A DNA stretch of 64,000 bases, taken from the NCBI RefSeq assembly GCF_016405885.1, contig NZ_JAEKGC010000010.1:62001-126000 (forward strand). The letters are read 5' to 3'. This document shows positions 23,531-36,313 of the stretch, piece by piece. The notes beneath the pieces were generated by a model. It did not search any database. It was not told where the DNA came from and saw nothing but the letters and a program-made list of their open reading frames with translations. The position numbers and the translations under genes are program-made. Positions within the stretch are counted from its first letter, which is position 1; the number at the start of each line of letters is the position of its first letter. Source of the stretch: Arthrobacter sp. MSA 4-2 (lineage in GTDB: Bacteria > Actinomycetota > Actinomycetes > Actinomycetales > Micrococcaceae).

Positions 23531-23857
23531 ATGAGCACTACCAAAGATGTCAGCGAAGCGACCTTCGAGGCGGACGTCCTCCAGGCTCAGAAACCGGTAA
23601 TAGTTGATTTCTGGGCTGAGTGGTGTGGCCCCTGTCGTATGCTTTCGCCCATCCTCGATGCGATCGCCGGAGAGCACTCCGAGAAGATCGACGTCGTCAA
23701 GGTGAACGTCGACGACAACCCTGCTATTGCCGCAAAGTACGGAATCACCTCGATTCCGGCTGTCTACGTCTTCAAGGACGGCGAGGTGGCAGCTAAGTCC
23801 ATCGGCGCCAAGCCCAAGCAGGTTCTTGAGCAGGAATTCTCAGCCTTCATCAACTAA
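23531..23857 (+). CDS. trxA: thioredoxin
   Basis: 108 residues with the canonical active site FWAEWCGPCRMLSP (Cys about 34 and 37) and the cis-Pro in ITSIPAVYVF. The general cytosolic disulfide reductant, recycled by TrxB encoded just upstream; the two share the SigR-type promoter. GGGAGAT precedes the ATG. The gene ends before a strong terminator at 23883-23914; the next gene, parB, is on the other strand almost 2.9 kb away. Confidence 0.98.
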   Translation: MSTTKDVSEATFEADVLQAQKPVIVDFWAEWCGPCRMLSPILDAIAGEHSEKIDVVKVNVDDNPAIAAKYGITSIPAVYVFKDGEVAAKSIGAKPKQVLEQEFSAFIN

Positions 23858-23882
23858 GGCTCAGTAGCCCTTCGAGGCTCAC

Positions 23883-23921
23883 AAGGCCGGCCGCCCCTAG
23901 GGACGGCCGGCCTTTCCTTTT
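23883..23921 (+). terminator. trxBA terminator
   Basis: AAGGCCGGCCG (23883-23893) pairs perfectly with CGGCCGGCCTT (23904-23914) around a 10-base loop, followed by the T-rich TCCTTTT. A classic intrinsic terminator 26 bp after trxA. Confidence 0.9.
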
Positions 23922-24439
23922 GCCGGTCAATCCTCGAGCGCCCCTCGAACGGAACAGGGAAGCTCAAGGCGGTCGGCCTGCCAGGTACCCGAGCCCGCCG
24001 GGGGTCCATGCCAACTGTTCGGGCGCACGACGAGGGAGCCCAACTGAGAGCTCAGGAGACGGCCCAGCAAACGGCCCAGGAGAGCGCCGAGCAGGGCCCG
24101 GGAGGGGCGCGGCCCTCCCGTCCGGACACCGGCCAGGGCGGCGCCTAAGGCCGCCTTGTCCCGCCAACAAGGGTGAGAGAGTCATGAACCGCCCTGGCCC
24201 GCCACGGGCTCGGAGAGAGCCGCGGAGCGCCCCGGCCCGCAGGGCCCGGCGAGAGGACCCGGGCGCCTCTGCCCGCCGGGACAGTTGGAAGCTCGCCCCA
24301 CCCGGGGCAGCGAGCCGAAGGCGCCGGGGAAGCGCGTGGCGCAGCCTTGTGAGGCACCGGTGGATAAGCAGCCTCCAAATGGCAGTATCGGCGCGCCTCC
24401 ACCGCTGCCCTGCCGGACCCCAGGCGGACTCGCACTCAT

Positions 24440-24453
24440 GTTTCACGTGAAAC
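24440..24453. other. parS site 1
   Basis: Perfect 14-bp palindrome GTTTCACGTGAAAC; with flanks it matches 15 of 16 bases of the consensus TGTTTCACGTGAAACA. Most trxA-proximal site. Confidence 0.92.
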
Positions 24454-24745
24454 TGCGTCTAGACCGTTCATGCGAGCATGCATCTGCCACGCTGCTAGAA
24501 GAGGCAATTATGGTTGCGAACCGTAGCCCACCGCCACGGCGCAGCGACATCCGCCGATCGGAAGACCGACCCGGCCGGGAAGGAGGAATGTGTACCGTGG
24601 TCTGGGTATCCCCCTCAAATGATGGACGCTAGCGTTGGCGGTGGTTACGTGAACGCCCAACTGGGGCGTGCCGAGACTCTGGTAGGGGGCAGCGGGGCGC
24701 GGCGTCCGGCACGGGCGTCCGAGTCATCCGACTCGGCTGGCTCCG

Positions 24746-24759
24746 GTTTCACGTGGAAC
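24746..24759. other. parS site 2 (one mismatch)
   Basis: GTTTCACGTGGAAC differs from the palindrome at one base (A to G), so binding is probably weaker. It lies 306 bp from site 1. Confidence 0.65.
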
Positions 24760-25169
24760 ACTCGCCAAGTAGCCGTATCACCGCCACTGATTGATCGACG
24801 ACCGACGCGACCGCTAAGATCGAGTGCCGCAGTGACCACGATGCTAGGGTCCAGGGTTTACGACCTCATGAATGCAGGCGTTTACAGGTGCGCGAACCGA
24901 CAGGTGTCCGGATGTGCGAATACACGGGCGCACGACCTCGCCGATACACGACCCCGCGAAGGCACGCCGGCGCGAACGCACGGCTGCATGCGAGCTCGCG
25001 CAGGGCTGAGGACCCGCTCTTCCCGTGTCTCTTGCGTCGGCATAGAACGCCGCACACCCGTCCTATCCGGACTCAAGGAACACTCGAATTGACGATTCAC
25101 TGAAGACTTCCATCGCACCCGTCTTGCTGAGGCGGCTCTTGGGCCGATTCACGCTCCCTACGACAGCTT

Positions 25170-25183
25170 GTTTCACGTGAAAC
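25170..25183. other. parS site 3
   Basis: Perfect core GTTTCACGTGAAAC preceded by T; 15 of 16 consensus bases. Confidence 0.92.
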
Positions 25184-25685
25184 CCCACGGCAACTCGAGT
25201 GAGCCTTCCGCTTTCGCTCGTCCCCCAAGGCAAACCGTGTTCGCCGAGACAGGAACGCCAGGACAATTCGCAGGCGTTCAGCAGGAGCCCTCGGCCGGTG
25301 GCGTTCACTGCTGGCTGCAGGGAAGCAAAAATGCTCTCACGAGAACGAAGACGGTAGCGTCCAACAGAGGCACACCTATTTACCCCAGTAGGCGGCCCGG
25401 TGAGAAGCAAGCGGATCAGCCCCAGCGGTACCCGGGTGCGGCTAACGAACGCGATAATCGCGGTGCACGCCAAGGTCGGCACCCTCGAGAAGTTGCTTGC
25501 GCCATGCGCACTCGACTTCCTCGGAGGAGCAGCCCATTGACCGTCAGTTGCACATGATCGACGCCCATCGCGGGTCGGCGGGTATCGCGAACAGGTCCCG
25601 CCCGCGGCGGAATGACTTCGGGCCCTCTGCGGAATAGTGGCCGTGAGGCAGCTGTGGGTGATTCCCTCGACGCGCCCGACCGCCG

Positions 25686-25699
25686 TTTCACGTGAAACC
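25686..25699. other. parS site 4
   Basis: Perfect 14-bp core, flanked by C on both sides. Confidence 0.92.
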
Positions 25700-25873
25700 G
25701 AGCGACCACCGATGCTCCGCCGATCCCGTGCTCCACCTGATCCGGGCATTCGTCATTCGCCAGGCTGGGCTCGAGACTGAGCGAGTGGAAGCACGGGCCG
25801 TGTCGACGCCGATGGCGCCCTGCCGAGGAGGGAAGACCTTGGTGGATGTGCGGGGCACCTGTGGAGAGCGGAG

Positions 25874-25887
25874 GTTTCACGTGAAAC
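25874..25887. other. parS site 5
   Basis: Perfect 14-bp core followed by A; 15 of 16 consensus bases. Confidence 0.92.
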
Positions 25888-26182
25888 AGCGGGTGTCGAC
25901 CGCTACTGCAGAACTGCAGGACGCCCGAACCAATCGCTACCGCCCATCACCAGCCCCCGGTCGTGAGCCGCCAACTACTATCTAGAGTCGAATCGTGGCG
26001 TCAGGGAGCGCCGCCGGACCTGGGTCCCGCCCTAAGATAACTATCGGATGCTGCTCGGAAGGCAGCGGCAAGCTGCACGCGGAGTGCCGGCCCTGCAGGA
26101 TCCGCCACTATTCGCGGCTTCCGCCCGCTTCAGTACCCGCCTGAGCAGCCACGGGCCGCAGATCGGCGGGCGTGCGCCGGGC

Positions 26183-26196
26183 GTTTCACGTGAAAC
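26183..26196. other. parS site 6
   Basis: Perfect 14-bp core with C and G flanks, which extend the dyad by one base pair. Confidence 0.92.
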
Positions 26197-26397
26197 GGAC
26201 ACCTGCCCCTCGGCATGGGTCGTACAGCGCCTGCTGCTCCTGTGCGGGACCCGGACGGCCCTGCGCATAGGACCTTGCACTACAAAGCCGTGGTGACGCG
26301 GTGTTGAGGCCCGCAAGGAGCCCTATTAACGCAATTCTCGCCCATCTCCCCAGGGTCGGGATGTCCGCAAGCTGCAGGTCGGCGCACGTTCGCGTCG

Positions 26398-26411
26398 GTT
26401 TCACGTGAAAC
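26398..26411. other. parS site 7
   Basis: Perfect 14-bp core GTTTCACGTGAAAC, 215 bp from site 6. Confidence 0.92.
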
Positions 26412-26590
26412 GGATGCGTCGATCCGGCTCCCGAGCAGCACCAGCCGGCGTACGCCGACGCACCGGGTACTGGCCTTGGTGTCTGCCATGCGCCGTCAGG
26501 CATCCCGACGGCCCCCCGTCTTTTGACCACCGGCCCTGGATAGGGTAATCCTCAGCGGCCCAGCGCTTGCGCGTCACCCACGCGCGGACA

Positions 26591-26604
26591 GTTTCACGTG
26601 AAAC
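26591..26604. other. parS site 8
   Basis: Perfect 14-bp core, only 76 bp from site 9 and 107 bp from the parB stop. Confidence 0.92.
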
Positions 26605-26655
26605 GCGTTCGCGCGGTGAACGAGATCGCGTGTTCTACATCGGTCGACCACGCGA

Positions 26656-26691
26656 AACGCCGGCCCGTTTCACGTGAAACGGGCCGGCGTT
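26656..26691. other. parS site 9 inside a 36-bp perfect palindrome
   Basis: The parS core at 26667-26680 is extended on each side by 11 bp (AACGCCGGCCC and GGGCCGGCGTT) to a perfect 36-bp dyad. It starts 20 bp after the parB stop codon, so as RNA it would form an 18-bp stem and may end parB transcription, although no T tract follows on the minus strand. Confidence 0.9.
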
Positions 26692-26710
26692 CAATGGGGT
26701 GTGACATCAG

Positions 26711-28315
26711 TCAGTTGGAAGGCGGTGTCAACACGGTCATGATGCGGTTGAGGTCATCCACACTCGCGAACTCGATGCTGACCTTGCCCTTGCGGGCGCC
26801 GAGCGTGATCTTCACGCTGGTATCGAGACGGTCTGACAGCGACGTCGCCAGATAGTCAAGACGTTCATGGCGCGCAGCATTACGGGGCGCGGTCTGCTTT
26901 GTCTGCCTCCGGAGCCCGTCGCTCATTGCCACGATCTCCTCGGTAGACCGCACAGAAAGGCCTTCGGCGACGATGCGCTGGGCCAGCTTTTCCATGTCGG
27001 CCTGGTCCGCAAGACCCAGGAGCGCGCGAGCGTGTCCCGCGGACAATACTCCGGCCGCAACGCGCCTTTGAACCAGAGGAGGGAGCTTCATCAACCGAAG
27101 CGTGTTGGAGATCTGCGGGCGCGAGCGTCCGATCCGCTCAGCCAGCTCCTCGTGAGAACAACCGAAGTCGTCGAGCAGCTGCTGGTACGCCGCCGCTTCT
27201 TCAAGCGGATTGAGCGAGCTCCGGTGAAGGTTCTCGAGCAGCGCGTCGCGCAGCAGGTCATCATCGGCCGTGGACCGGATGATCGCTGGCACACGTTCGA
27301 GCCCGGCTTCGCGGGTGGCACGCCAGCGGCGCTCACCCATAACCAGCTCGTAGGGGGCATCGCCCTTCTCCGACGAGGGGCGGACGACGATGGGTTGCAG
27401 CACCCCGATCTCACGGATGGAGTGAACCAACTCGGCCATGTCATCGGCATCGAAGACCGAACGGGGCTGCTTCCGGTTGGGGTGGATGGCATCGAGCGGG
27501 AGTTCCGCGAACCGGGCGCCCGGAACCTCAAGAAGTCCTCCTGGGTCGCCATCCACTCCGTCGGCCGGCGCGGGGTCCGCGTCCCCGGCCGCAGCGGTGG
27601 TATCGGGCGTCCCGCTCCCGGTAGGCATCTCTGCCTGTACGGGCGCTTCCCGCTCCCCAACCGCTGCAGGCTCCACTTCTGCCGCCGCTTCCGCCTCTGC
27701 GGGGCTCTCAGCGGCTTCCCCGGGGCCCCGAACGGCGGCTTCAGCCTCCTGCGGAGCGTCCACAGCTTCGGGCTCGTCCGCGGCCGTACCGGCCGCTCCG
27801 CGGGCGTCAGCGCGCTCTGGCGCCTGTTCGGGCTCCGGTCTGGCAGCAGCCTGGGCGTCGGCACCAGCCAGACCATCCGAGGCTGACGCGGCCTTCTTCC
27901 GGCCCTTGGCTTCGGTACTGCGGGCGGCGGACGACGGCGCGGCGGAAGCGTCGGCCACCGATGGGGAGGCTCCGGTTTCACGTGAAACCTCGGCCGGTGT
28001 AGGCACCGTCGTGGTTTCTGCGGCATCCGCAGCCGGAGGGACTGCGCCGCGCTTTGCCGGCGGTGCGGTCTTCGCTGCAGGCTTGCCACCATTGCGGCGC
28101 GACGGAGCGATCAACGCATCCTTGTTGATTCCGCTGCTCCGCTGCGCACGCTTTGCCCCGGGAGTCCCGTCATGCCCCTGCCCGGAGGTGAAGAAGAGGT
28201 CGGCAGGACGGCCGGACTGCTTGAGGGATTCGGAGGACACCTCCGTTTCTTCGGGAGGGGCGCTGGGAATGAGCGCCCCCAGACCACGGCCAAGACCCCG
28301 GCGCTTTTCCGCCAT
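26711..28315 (-). CDS. parB: chromosome partitioning protein ParB, with very long N-terminal linker
   Basis: 534 residues against about 300-380 for most relatives. The N-terminal MAEKRRGLGRGLGALIP is the conserved ParA-contacting peptide. Residues of about 20-260 form an Ala/Glu/Pro-rich, low-complexity linker. The core follows: HPNRKQPR (CTPase motif 1), GERRWRATREAG (about 328), ENLHRSSLNPLEEA, a helix-turn-helix (SHEELAERIGRSRPQISNTLRL) that binds parS, and a C-terminal dimer domain. It loads at parS as a CTP-dependent clamp. A parS site sits inside the linker-coding part at 27975. Confidence 0.96.
   Translation of the reverse strand: MAEKRRGLGRGLGALIPSAPPEETEVSSESLKQSGRPADLFFTSGQGHDGTPGAKRAQRSSGINKDALIAPSRRNGGKPAAKTAPPAKRGAVPPAADAAETTTVPTPAEVSRETGASPSVADASAAPSSAARSTEAKGRKKAASASDGLAGADAQAAARPEPEQAPERADARGAAGTAADEPEAVDAPQEAEAAVRGPGEAAESPAEAEAAAEVEPAAVGEREAPVQAEMPTGSGTPDTTAAAGDADPAPADGVDGDPGGLLEVPGARFAELPLDAIHPNRKQPRSVFDADDMAELVHSIREIGVLQPIVVRPSSEKGDAPYELVMGERRWRATREAGLERVPAIIRSTADDDLLRDALLENLHRSSLNPLEEAAAYQQLLDDFGCSHEELAERIGRSRPQISNTLRLMKLPPLVQRRVAAGVLSAGHARALLGLADQADMEKLAQRIVAEGLSVRSTEEIVAMSDGLRRQTKQTAPRNAARHERLDYLATSLSDRLDTSVKITLGARKGKVSIEFASVDDLNRIMTVLTPPSN
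27975..27988. other. parS site 10, inside parB
   Basis: Perfect GTTTCACGTGAAAC within the linker-coding segment of parB, read as Val-Ser-Arg-Glu-Thr. It is 1.3 kb from site 9. Confidence 0.92.
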
Positions 28316-28405: not shown

Positions 28406-29488
28406 CTAACTACGTTCGGCGATTTCCGCTGCGGCCTCAAGGTAGGACAGGGCACCGGACGATGACGGATCATAGGTCATAACGGTCTGCTGGTAGCTTG
28501 GGGCCTCGGAAATTCGAACCGAACGAGGTACGACTGCCTTCAGGACCTGCTTCGGGAAGTGTTCCCGCACCTCGGCGGCCACCTGGGCGGCCAGGTTGGT
28601 CCGCCCGTCGTACATCGTGAGCAGGATCGTTGAGACAACCAGATCCGCATTGAGGTGCTTTTGGATCATCTCGATGTTCTTCAGCAGCTGGCTCAGTCCC
28701 TCAAGTGCGTAGTACTCGCACTGGATCGGGATCAGAACCTCCCGCGCCGCGACGAACGCGTTGACCGTGAGCAGTCCGAGGCTCGGCGGGCAGTCGATGA
28801 AGATGTAGTCAAGGCGGGGCTGACCGTTTTCGGCGCGCTCCTTGGCGTACACGTCGATGGCACGGCGCAGGCGCTGCTCCCGGGCGACCAGGGACACCAA
28901 CTCGATTTCGGCGCCCGCGAGGTGGATGGTGGCCGGCGCACAGATCAGGTTGTCGATGTCGGGGCATGGTGCCACAACCTGGCTCAACGGCAGGTCGTCG
29001 ATCAGGACGTCGTAGATGCTGTCGACTTCGGCGTGGTGGGGGATGCCCAGCGCGGTGGACGCGTTTCCCTGGGGGTCAATGTCGATCACCAGCACGTTGA
29101 GGCCGGAGGTGGCGAGTGCGGCGGCGATGTTGACGGTGGTCGTGGTCTTACCGACTCCGCCCTTCTGGTTGCTGATGGTGACCACGCGCGTGGACTCAGG
29201 CCGCGGAAGCTCGCGGCCCAGCAGCTTCTCCCGCCGCCGGGTCTCACTGGCCAGCTCCCGACCCAGCGGGGAGGATTCATCCATCGCTTCCATCACGCTG
29301 TTGCCCCTGCCGCTTTTCTTGGCCGGAGCATCCGTGGAGTCGGACAGTGAGAAGGTTGTTTCACGTGAAACGATTCCGGTGTTCGCCGGATCTGCAAACA
29401 CTTCCGGTTGAATTTCCCCGAGTCCTACCGCCAGCGGCGATCCCGCAACCAACAAGGTCGAGTTCCGCTTAGATGCGGTGTCTTTCAT
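28406..29488 (-). CDS. parA: chromosome partitioning ATPase ParA
   Basis: 360 residues if it starts at ATG 29488 (MKDTASKRNSTLL); the frame is open further up but overlaps rsmG, and later in-frame starts are possible because no ribosome site is clear. The deviant Walker A SNQKGGVGKTTTTVNIA lies after an extended N-terminal tail of about 100 residues. Then come VIDIDPQGNASTALG (A'), YIFIDCPPSLGLLTVNA (Walker B) and a conserved C-terminus. ParA forms ATP-dependent gradients on DNA that move ParB-parS complexes. parB follows 90 bp downstream. The tail encodes a parS site (29358). Confidence 0.95.
   Translation of the reverse strand: MKDTASKRNSTLLVAGSPLAVGLGEIQPEVFADPANTGIVSRETTFSLSDSTDAPAKKSGRGNSVMEAMDESSPLGRELASETRRREKLLGRELPRPESTRVVTISNQKGGVGKTTTTVNIAAALATSGLNVLVIDIDPQGNASTALGIPHHAEVDSIYDVLIDDLPLSQVVAPCPDIDNLICAPATIHLAGAEIELVSLVAREQRLRRAIDVYAKERAENGQPRLDYIFIDCPPSLGLLTVNAFVAAREVLIPIQCEYYALEGLSQLLKNIEMIQKHLNADLVVSTILLTMYDGRTNLAAQVAAEVREHFPKQVLKAVVPRSVRISEAPSYQQTVMTYDPSSSGALSYLEAAAEIAERS
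29358..29371. other. parS site 11, inside parA
   Basis: Perfect GTTTCACGTGAAAC within the N-terminal tail region of parA, again read as Val-Ser-Arg-Glu-Thr. It is about 5 kb from oriC. Confidence 0.92.
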
Positions 29489-29624
29489 AGTCACTCGGTA
29501 GCTCACTTCCAACATGCCAGGCACTGTTACCTCTAAGACTAACGGGTTGCCTGAACTTGCCGGCGTTCCCGCGCGGCGATCCGGCCACCGGCTCTCCGCC
29601 CAGGACCCGCAGCCGACGCCGGGA

Positions 29625-33220: not shown

Positions 33221-34633
33221 GTGGTGGAAACGGACGAGGTCAACGACGTCGGCAGCTCATGGCGGAAGGTGATCCGAACCCTTGAGCATGACGATCGCGT
33301 CACTCCGAGGCAGCGCGGATTCGTCGTTCTGGCTCAGGCCCAGGGACTGATCGGCACCACAATGCTGGTCGCCGTCCCGAATGAACTGACCCGCGAGGTG
33401 CTCCAGACCCAGCTGAAGGCTGCACTGGACGAAGCCCTGCACGAAGTGTTCAGGGAGGACATCCAGTGTGCGTTCGTCATCGACCCCGATCTCACTCCGG
33501 TCGCCGAGGAGGAGCCGGTTCCGGAATCGGCGCCCTCCCCGGAACAGCGGGAAGAACCGAAGCCCTCGCCGACGCCGCCAAGCAACTCCCATGAGTTCGG
33601 CCGGCTGAACCCCAAGTACATCTTCGATACCTTCGTCATCGGCTCATCGAACCGGTTTGCGCACGCCGCCGCGGTCGCGGTCGCCGAGGCTCCCGCCAAG
33701 GCCTACAACCCGTTGTTCATCTACGGTGACTCAGGCCTTGGCAAGACCCACCTCCTTCACGCGATCGGCCACTATGCCCGGCATCTCTACACCGGCATCC
33801 GTGTGAGGTACGTGAACTCCGAGGAATTCACGAACGACTTCATCAACTCGATCCGCGACGATGAGGGCACGAGCTTCAAGCAGACCTACCGCAATGTGGA
33901 CATCCTGCTCATCGATGACATCCAGTTCCTCTCCGGTAAGGACCGGACCCAGGAGGAGTTCTTCCACACCTTCAATGCGCTGCACAACCACAACAAGCAG
34001 GTGGTGATCACCTCGGACCTGCCGCCGAAGCAGCTTTCAGGCTTCGAGGAGCGCATGCGGTCGCGGTTCGAGTGGGGCCTGCTCACCGATATCCAGCCGC
34101 CCGAACTCGAAACCCGTATCGCCATCCTGCGCAAGAAGGCGATCAGCGACAGCCTGAGCGCACCCGATGACGTCCTTGAGTACATCGCGTCCAAGATCGC
34201 AACGAACATCCGGGAACTTGAGGGTGCGCTGATCCGGGTCACCGCCTTCGCGAGCCTGAACCGGCAGCCGGTCGACGTGAACCTGGCCGAGATAGTGCTC
34301 AAGGATCTGATCTCCGATGACGGCGCACAGGAGATCACCTCGACGGTGATCATGGCCCAGACCGCCGACTACTTCCAGATCAGCCTCGAGGAGTTGTGCA
34401 GCAAGTCCCGCACCCGCACCCTGGTGACGGCCCGGCAGATCGCCATGTACCTCTGCCGCGAACTGACCGACATGTCCCTGCCCAAGATCGGCCAGGAGCT
34501 CGGTGGCCGTGATCACACGACGGTCATCCATGCCGACCGCAAGATCCGCGAACTCATGGCCGAGCGGCGGGCGATCTTCAACCAGGTGACCGAACTGACA
34601 AACCGCATCAAACACAAGCAGCGGGAAGCCTGA
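33221..34633 (+). CDS. dnaA: chromosomal replication initiator DnaA
   Basis: 470 residues. N-terminal DnaB/DnaA contact domain 1-90, a Pro/Glu-rich linker 90-125, then AAA+ with [19 protein letters not shown], Walker [17 protein letters not shown] (about 168) and Walker [25 protein letters not shown]. Domain IV ends in [20 protein letters not shown], the DnaA-box recognition signature. GTG start at 33221 with AGGGG upstream; a second GTG follows at once. oriC lies directly downstream. Confidence 0.98.
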
Positions 34634-34935: not shown

Positions 34936-35188
34936 TCCTGCACCCCGGTCCGGGCCCGGACCCGACCCGTTCCGGGTCGCTCCTCCCGGTTGTGCCGGCC
35001 GGCCCCGGCCCTTCCGATGGCACCCATCCACGGGACCCGGCGGCTCAGGCTAAGCTGTGTTCCAAGCAGGGTTGGGGTCAACGGTGCCCTCCCGGATTCT
35101 CTTTCCGCACAGACACCGGACCCCGCCCACGTACGTCCATGTCGGTGGTTGTACTCAAGAGGTACTTTGTGAAAGGCGGCTTCCTTCC

Positions 35189-36313
35189 GTGAAATTCAGA
35201 GTTGAGCGGGACGTTCTCGCGGAGGCTGTCTCCTGGACAGCGCGCTCCCTTTCCCCGCGCCCACCTGTTCCCGTGCTGGCAGGGCTGCTCATCAAGGCCG
35301 AGGGCGGAGCCCTCTCCCTGGCGAGCTTCGACTACGAAATCTCGGCGCGCCTGGAGATCCCCGCCGACATCAGCGAGGAAGGAACCATCCTCGTTTCGGG
35401 GCGCCTGCTTGCCGATATCTGCCGCAGCCTGCCCTCGGCGCCCGTCGAGGTGGCCACTGACGGCTCGAAAGTCACGCTGACCTGCCGGAACAGCCGGTTC
35501 AACCTCGCCACCATGCCCGAAGGCGAATACCCCGAGCTGCCGAAGCTCCCCGCCGTCAGCGGCGTCGTCGACGGCGATGCCTTCGCCCAGGCCGTCTCCC
35601 AGGTGATCATCGCCGCCAGCCGCGACGACACCCTGCCCATCCTCACCGGCGTCCGCATGGAGATCGAAGACGACCTCATCACGCTCCTGGCCACCGACCG
35701 GTACCGGCTGGCCCTGCGGGAAGTGTCCTGGAAGCCTTCCACACCGGGCATCTCCACCAGCGCCCTGGTCAAGGCCAAGACCCTCAACGAGGTCGCCAAG
35801 ACCCTCGGCGGCGCCGGCGACCTGAACATCGCCTTTTCCGATGACAGCGAACTGATCGGTTTCGAAAGCGGCGGCCGTCGGACCACCTCGCTGCTGGTCG
35901 ATGGGGACTACCCGAAGATCCGGTCCCTCTTCCCCGAAACCACGCCGATCCACGCCACCGTCGAAACCAGTGCCCTCGTCGAGGCCGTGCGGCGTGTGTC
36001 GCTGGTGGCCGAACGGAACACCCCGGTGCGGCTGGCCTTCACCCAGGGACAGGTGGCCCTCGACGCTGGCACCGGCGAGGACGCCCAGGCCTCCGAAGCC
36101 ATCGAGGCGACCCTTGACGGCGACGACATCACCGTCGCGTTCAACCCGCAGTACCTCAGCGAGGGCCTCGGCGCCTTCCCCAGCAGGTTCGTGCGCTTTT
36201 CGTTCACTTCCCCGCCAAAACCGGCTGTCATGTCGGCACAGGAGGAAGCCACAGGCGAGGACCGGGAAGACTACCGGTACCTGCTGATGCCCGTTCGGCT
36301 TCCGAACCAGTAA
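35189..36313 (+). CDS. dnaN: DNA polymerase III beta sliding clamp
   Basis: 374 residues from GTG at 35189 (KFRVERDVLAEAVSWTARSL). The clamp ring tethers polymerase and many partners to DNA. Three repeated clamp domains are visible; PVPVLAGLLIKAEGGALSLASFDYEIS in the first and the C-terminal YLLMPVRLPNQ (ligand pocket) are standard. The open frame extends upstream to 35057 but without clamp sequence. Confidence 0.97.
   Translation: MKFRVERDVLAEAVSWTARSLSPRPPVPVLAGLLIKAEGGALSLASFDYEISARLEIPADISEEGTILVSGRLLADICRSLPSAPVEVATDGSKVTLTCRNSRFNLATMPEGEYPELPKLPAVSGVVDGDAFAQAVSQVIIAASRDDTLPILTGVRMEIEDDLITLLATDRYRLALREVSWKPSTPGISTSALVKAKTLNEVAKTLGGAGDLNIAFSDDSELIGFESGGRRTTSLLVDGDYPKIRSLFPETTPIHATVETSALVEAVRRVSLVAERNTPVRLAFTQGQVALDAGTGEDAQASEAIEATLDGDDITVAFNPQYLSEGLGAFPSRFVRFSFTSPPKPAVMSAQEEATGEDREDYRYLLMPVRLPNQ

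Follow-up and report, generated by a model that had tools for sequence, protein, structure and literature searches.

What is the role of the 2853 bp of DNA that separate trxA from the chromosome partition gene parB in Arthrobacter sp. MSA 4-2, a stretch in which no gene is recognisable and nine copies of parS, the loading site of ParB, are concentrated? This stretch (23858..26710), referred to below as the desert, lies in a window of 64,000 nucleotides, the whole of the DNA that was analysed, which corresponds to positions 62,001-126,000 of contig NZ_JAEKGC010000010.1 (C1) in the draft assembly GCF_016405885.1 (3,589,572 bases, 35 contigs). We consider it likely that the desert is the centromere of the chromosome, that is, a gene-free, multi-site zone for loading ParB of the ParABS system, bounded by terminator-like hairpins.

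A pattern search located eight perfect parS sites in the desert, at 24440..24453 (parS 1), 25170..25183 (parS 3), 25685..25698 (parS 4), 25874..25887 (parS 5), 26183..26196 (parS 6), 26398..26411 (parS 7), 26591..26604 (parS 8) and 26667..26680 (parS 9), together with a one-mismatch variant, GTTTCACGTGGAAC, at 24746..24759 (parS 2) that recurs in relatives. Two further perfect sites fall within parB (parS 10, 27975..27988) and parA (parS 11, 29358..29371). All of these sites, eleven in 4.9 kb, had been claimed in an initial annotation made from the letters of the window, and the search agreed with it exactly. The whole window yielded 11 matches at up to two mismatches, compared with a mean of 0.07 and a maximum of 1 in 100 shuffles. 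The annotation had also proposed a genome-wide scan as a check, and this placed all 10 perfect sites of the assembly within the trxA-parB-parA stretch and none outside it. Elsewhere in the assembly, matches at up to two mismatches were limited to one site with a single mismatch (C29) and one with two (C2), and a control pattern, parS read backwards, occurred at two places in the whole assembly at the same threshold.

The flanking genes identify the system to which these sites belong. As annotated, the two border genes converge: trxA (23531..23857, + strand; Pfam Thioredoxin, E 7.8e-31) ends at 23857, and parB (26711..28315, - strand), whose product carries the three domains ParB_N, HTH_ParB and ParB_C, ends at 26711. 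Adjacent to parB lies parA (28406..29491, - strand), encoding an ATPase with Pfam matches AAA_31 and CbiA. From the positions of dnaA (33221..34633, + strand; TIGR00362, 538 bits) and dnaN (35057-36313; TIGR00663, 291.5 bits), the distance between the origin and the desert is about 8-10 kb, and the genome encodes an SMC condensin that matches above the curated cut-off. Since GTTTCACGTGAAAC-type parS sites are clustered near parAB and close to oriC, and since a full-domain ParB, a ParA ATPase and SMC are all present, the locus has the make-up of a ParABS centromere.

The emptiness of the desert was assessed in several ways. All 18 open reading frames (ORFs) of at least 60 amino acids within 23858-26710 gave negative codon log-odds, and values were positive for trxA and parB, which were outside the training set of the codon model, and for trxB, parA and yidC, which were inside it (the set consisted of 27 ORFs, including at least one shadow ORF over parB). 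Ten desert ORFs produced no Pfam-A match above curated cut-offs and two below them (E 0.046 and 0.078), and Rfam produced no match over the desert either at the gathering cut-off or up to E 0.5. By the coding model no gene-free stretch of the window exceeds the desert (2877 bp), the runner-up measuring 831 bp, and samples from five other contigs, 100 kb in all, contained none longer than 941 bp; across the 164 kb of this genome that were examined, the desert is thus about three times the length of the next-longest one. Codon log-odds, Pfam and Rfam thus concur with the annotated absence of a supportable gene between trxA and parB. A conserved gene in the corresponding gaps of relatives, which the annotation had named as the contrary outcome, was not found either, in that no ORF of at least 70 amino acids in the gaps of the genus matched an ORF of a different gap.

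These results also bear on two rival explanations. The first, that a small RNA or small protein encoded in the region has escaped recognition and that parS is secondary to it, is very improbable: very short or foreign genes can evade curated families and codon statistics, but there is no ORF match across the genus gaps, no Rfam match up to E 0.5 and, in three pairs of close species, the gaps approach the identity of shuffled sequence (see below). The second, that it consists of degenerate mobile DNA or is an assembly artefact, we regard as scarcely credible. A contig end cuts four of the 35 congeneric gaps, which hints at a region that is hard to assemble; against this, seven congeneric genomes in single contigs carry a like gap of 1.9-3.8 kb, the ten ORFs lack Pfam matches above cut-off, and the desert sequence matches nothing else in its own genome and, in 10 of 99 other genomes of the family, no more than short pieces of 23-77 bp.

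The arrangement is retained throughout the genus sample. A ParB locus was recovered at the cut-off in 35 of 38 congeneric genomes (34 relatives and the window), the other three being dropped; the nearest by ParB among the genomes searched were A. crusticola (G007, L098; 90%), which belongs to the Micrococcaceae, and G013 (L097; 89%). The trxA-parB gap is intact at 31 of the 35 loci, where it spans 1.24-3.76 kb, and at four it ends at a contig edge. Every one of the 35 gaps contains at least one perfect parS and between 3 and 10 sites at up to one mismatch. Over their combined 82,716 bp, perfect sites number 160, against about 0.0003 expected from random letters; a further 51 sites have one mismatch and 10 have two. 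Sites equivalent to those inside the coding regions of the window are also recurrent in many congeners, at 0.8-1.3 kb (compare the site in parB) and at 2.3-2.6 kb (compare the site in parA) from the 3' end of parB.

The variant GTTCCACGTGAAAC, as found at 24746 in the window, accounts for 37 of the 51 one-mismatch sites in the genus gaps, and a further 34 sites of this form occur in the gaps of other genera. It is probably functional, because the GTTCCAC half-site is bound by ParB proteins of several species according to the available text of PMC7022226. The variant is dominant in L113 of genus g26 (5 of 5 sites) and in L116 (6 of 8) and L144 (12 of 13), both of genus g29, as if the parS consensus had shifted to it in these two genera.

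Beyond the genus, 40 loci from 31 other genera of the family were sampled, with one or two genomes per genus (three for g29). Three loci, L134 (g46), L140 (g52) and L145 (g39), were dropped because trxA lay outside the fetched stretch, and coding was judged with locus-trained models, as the codon model of the window's own genome overlooked amidase genes. Gene-free parS stretches of 0.9-6.85 kb were found beside parB at 22 loci in 15 other genera. For six of the largest deserts the 30 longest ORFs were listed, and the 20 of these that were scanned gave no Pfam match at E 0.01. Eleven gaps of the family (one of them congeneric) also contain genes, and none of their 66 parS sites falls in a coding segment, compared with 22.0 expected. 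Small gaps of 0.07-0.4 kb characterise g23, g24, g25, g33, g34, g35, g36, g42, g43, g48 and g51, and in these eleven genera the majority of parS sites is located upstream, on the parB-parA side. An additional genome of g33 has a gap of 1.6 kb. Intermediate cases are g32 (0.8 kb), g38 (0.6 kb) and g27 (an amidase gene plus 0.1 kb). In a tree built from seven proteins, rooted on a single outgroup locus and weakly supported at several inner nodes, all judged deserts longer than 0.9 kb fall in one clade with a support of 1.00. The simplest reading is that the desert was gained at the base of this clade and later shrank in g42, g48 and g51. Among 15 loci from the order but outside the family, trxA could be located at 11; ten of these 11 intervals hold coding segments, with a longest empty part of 0.10-0.39 kb, and the other, f8, has 0.76 kb of empty DNA with three parS sites.

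The initial annotation had further suggested that a wall amidase gene usually occupies this position in relatives and that the desert replaced it. An amidase gene does adjoin trxA in g27, g29, g30, g40 and g53 and in three outgroup families, two examples carrying the Pfam domains Amidase_3 and PG_binding_1, so that the first part of the suggestion applies to only some relatives (5 of 31 other genera). The second part fails: in g29, g30, g40 and g53 the amidase gene beside trxA coexists with a parS desert of 0.9-5.2 kb that touches parB, with further genes between the two in g53, and the desert is not a simple amidase replacement. What stands of the annotated centromere-like loading zone is a non-coding, parS-dense block unlike the rest of the genome as searched and sampled.

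The same data address the possibility that the desert is a passive relic, in which gene loss left neutral DNA, parS sites tied to parB and oriC gathered there, and the emptiness is a by-product. We judge this to be unlikely, although several observations would fit it. An amidase query was negative in all 38 congeneric genomes and positive in eight of 37 other genomes of the family, the spacers between sites are unconstrained in sequence and show no standout motif besides parS, and a P450-like gene has been able to settle in one species. This ORF (Pfam p450, E 6.8e-13) lies at 122-1480 in the trxA half of the L093 gap (G016) and is the only long insert resembling a gene in the 35 congeneric gaps; two other gaps (L067 and L069) each contain one coding-like segment of about 0.1 kb. 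However, the coexistence of amidase and desert in four genera shows that the desert is not a scar of amidase loss, and deserts of 0.9-6.85 kb recur in 16 genera, including that of the window; in the window's own genome the maximum elsewhere in the 164 kb examined is 0.94 kb. Moreover, in all 11 family gaps that contain genes the longest empty part adjoins parB and holds all or nearly all of the sites. Passive decay would also not lead one to expect the exclusion between neighbouring sites, or the layout kept in three of 12 species pairs, that are described below.

Screening of the spacers for further motifs (k-mers, DnaA boxes and KOPS-like sequences) gave nothing consistent, parS alone standing out; seven gene-bearing gaps were excluded from it and the amidase-bearing L116, L117, L118 and L128 were retained. 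DnaA-like boxes numbered 14 in 53 gaps, as against 3 after mononucleotide shuffling.

Sites persist while the DNA between them changes very rapidly. Between the window and G013, with a four-fold-site identity of 0.83, the gap identity is 0.66 (shuffled 0.43) and each of the nine parS sites in the window's gap is paired in the alignment with a site that has no more than one mismatch. Between the window and A. crusticola, at a four-fold-site identity of 0.81, the gap (2846 bp, with an equal number of sites) is only 0.47 identical, compared with 0.44 for shuffled sequence and an average of 0.92 for 25 other intergenic intervals (7850 bp). Two additional pairs gave 0.53 against 0.89 (22 other intergenic intervals) and 0.48 against 0.86 (16 intervals), the values for other intergenic DNA being somewhat high because some gene ends are included. 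The end of the gap next to trxA is still alignable between close species. Site layout is kept in three of 12 pairs (0 of 300 permutations as good), in which the spacers are at or near shuffled identity except beside trxA, and two more pairs reach 0.02-0.03.

The spacer turnover may reflect lack of constraint, a locally high mutation rate or repeated exchange. Conservation at four-fold sites reaches its minimum over the final 150 codons of parB (0.49-0.55), from where it increases through parA to yidC, a pattern that resembled a hotspot. The deficit at the parB 3' end relative to far genes is 0.218 in small-gap pairs (4 pairs, 4 genera) and 0.201 in desert pairs (33 pairs, 4 genera; Mann-Whitney P 0.55), a thin control in that only five of 20 fetched stretches were used, the rest being outside the divergence range or without a usable pair. 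As the synonymous gradient is also present in small-gap genera, it provides no argument for a mutational hotspot. On the trxB side, the difference between far genes and trxB is +0.054 in desert pairs and -0.052 in small-gap pairs. Import of a foreign desert into A. crusticola by recombination was considered and is not supported: no donor was found among the 38 congeneric genomes, the parB 3' ends still pair with their own clade, and identity fades without a sharp break. Tandem duplication was rejected as a general source of sites, being real but minor, with 8 of 283 adjacent pairs above every shuffle, in five species. Duplications beside or across parS, in tandem or at a distance, are seen in L144 (gap 1581-1947, period about 70 bp), in L063 (gap 1644-2056, period 208 bp) and in L149, where an exact 124-bp copy occupies 22-145 and 1913-2036 of the gap.

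Spacing was tested in gaps with at least four sites. In 32 congeneric gaps the coefficient of variation (CV) of the spacing is 0.40, compared with 0.77 for random placement, and 29 of the 32 lie below random. In the other desert genera it is 0.61 against 0.78 (n=17), and in the clusters of small-gap genera and outgroup families it is random-like (0.746 against 0.772, n=21). An exclusion distance of 150-200 bp between sites accounts for this spacing. The mean spacing per species is 393 bp (standard deviation 90), and the window itself shows 306, 424, 515, 189, 309, 215, 193 and 76 bp; values such as the last imply that the exclusion rule is not strict.

Both edges of the desert carry inverted repeats. 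At the left edge, a GC-rich repeat (23883..23914, + strand), with 16-nucleotide arms that are 94% complementary and no spacer, is likely to represent the trxA terminator. At the right edge, parS 9 occupies the centre of a perfect 36-nucleotide palindrome (26656..26691, - strand), which forms a terminator-like hairpin for parB with parS at its apex. RNA folding of 26630-26720 on the - strand gave -41.4 kcal/mol (z -4.8), and none of 200 shuffles was as good. Hairpin arms of 7 bp or more flank the last site in 18 of the 31 congeneric gaps in which that site lies within 120 bp of the parB stop, compared with 5 of 180 other sites, and in other genera the same test gave 21 of 31 loci and 8 of 125 other sites; f8 is the one outgroup locus with arms of this kind. 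The letters of the arms vary between species, and the position of the U-tract is T-rich in some relatives. We read this parB-proximal hairpin as a putative parB terminator that shares its apex with parS.

ParB family proteins load at parS as cytidine triphosphate (CTP)-bound clamps and then slide along the DNA. In the desert, every parS would serve as an entry point at which ParB dimers close into CTP clamps before sliding into the spacers, and the nine sites, 76-515 bp apart, would together build one compact partition complex for ParA and SMC. RNA polymerase traffic would be scarce there, and few clamps would be stripped. Selection would then act to retain the sites, to hold most of them at least about 150-200 bp from one another and to keep the stretch empty, leaving the spacer letters free for very fast turnover. 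From the sequence we infer ParB binding at the desert, its insulation from transcription and selection on the emptiness itself, and the shielding of ParB clamps from RNA polymerase by an empty, hairpin-bounded stretch is our own suggestion.

More broadly, and with the odds slightly against so complete a picture, Arthrobacter-type Micrococcaceae may have evolved a bacterial regional centromere. Such a centromere would consist of parS sites arrayed over as much as nearly 7 kb of gene-free DNA that is insulated from transcription, most of the sites being separated by about 150 bp or more, with spacers that are the fastest-changing sequence examined around it, with site number and layout under selection, and with the parB-proximal site doubling as part of the parB terminator. 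Eukaryotic centromeres keep their function amid fast DNA evolution and are gene-poor, although most of them have no comparable short defined site and their proteins are unrelated. The likeness is supported with regard to gene-free DNA, and dedication to segregation would follow by analogy; fast turnover with retention of sites is observed, the function so kept being putative. In the desert, the rapid evolution of centromere DNA would then have a parallel in bacteria.

Several results weigh against the interpretation of the desert as a hairpin-bounded ParB loading zone. With gaps of 0.4 kb or less in eleven genera, a desert is not required for ParABS, and one parS suffices in Corynebacterium glutamicum, according to the available text of PMC7083940. 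The correlation between parS number and gap length is only moderate (r 0.46, n=31). A simple 150-bp exclusion null yields a CV of 0.456 (z 1.9); since this rule matches the regularity, a fixed period is not proven. Site layout is not significant in seven of the 12 pairs, including the window and G013 (0.17). Finally, the U-tract that follows the parS hairpin of the window is weak, and a terminator rule does not flag it.

Comparison with known systems shows partial likenesses. In C. glutamicum, another actinobacterial ParABS system, ten 16-bp parS sites (parS1-10) are oriC-proximal and nine of the ten are intergenic, peaks in ParB chromatin immunoprecipitation lie over parS, and ParB and condensin fold the chromosome (PMC7083940, from the text available). 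Unlike those of the window, its sites extend over 35 kb, 73 kb from oriC, and do not form a single gene-free block beside parB; the available text of that paper mentions neither fast-changing spacers nor a parS-centred parB hairpin. The available text of PMC5815017 describes at least five parS sites in Caulobacter crescentus, the five strongest within 5 kb and about 8 kb from ori, a density and distance similar to those found here; there, however, the sites lie inside essential genes or genes with a high fitness cost. The same text gives 22 parS sites for Streptomyces coelicolor, which resembles the window as an actinobacterium with many origin-near sites. The statement of the initial annotation that parS clusters are typically scattered through genes is, on these partial accounts, too general: in C. 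glutamicum the sites are mostly intergenic, though over 35 kb, and in Caulobacter the strongest lie close together but inside genes.

A literature search of titles and the beginnings of abstracts, with most subscription papers outside its range, found no gene-free parS block described in the Micrococcaceae. Accounts of chromosomal parS usually deal with single sites, located within genes or between them, and in the present case a gene-free block has been retained by part of a family. Its natural variation in length (0.9-6.85 kb), site number (2-13) and spacing allows tests of why several parS sites exist, how transcription affects ParB clamps and what the minimal distance between loading sites is.

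Some minor observations concern individual loci. Contigs end within or at the gap in L063, L074, L082 and L086, and that of G015 is broken inside parB; the desert region may be hard to assemble in drafts. The parB match at G025:C3:90620-91528 (L042), in a congeneric draft genome, contains one in-frame TGA. The 6.85-kb desert of L132 (g44) carries long inverted repeats, one of 335 bp and one of 178 bp, each at 72%.

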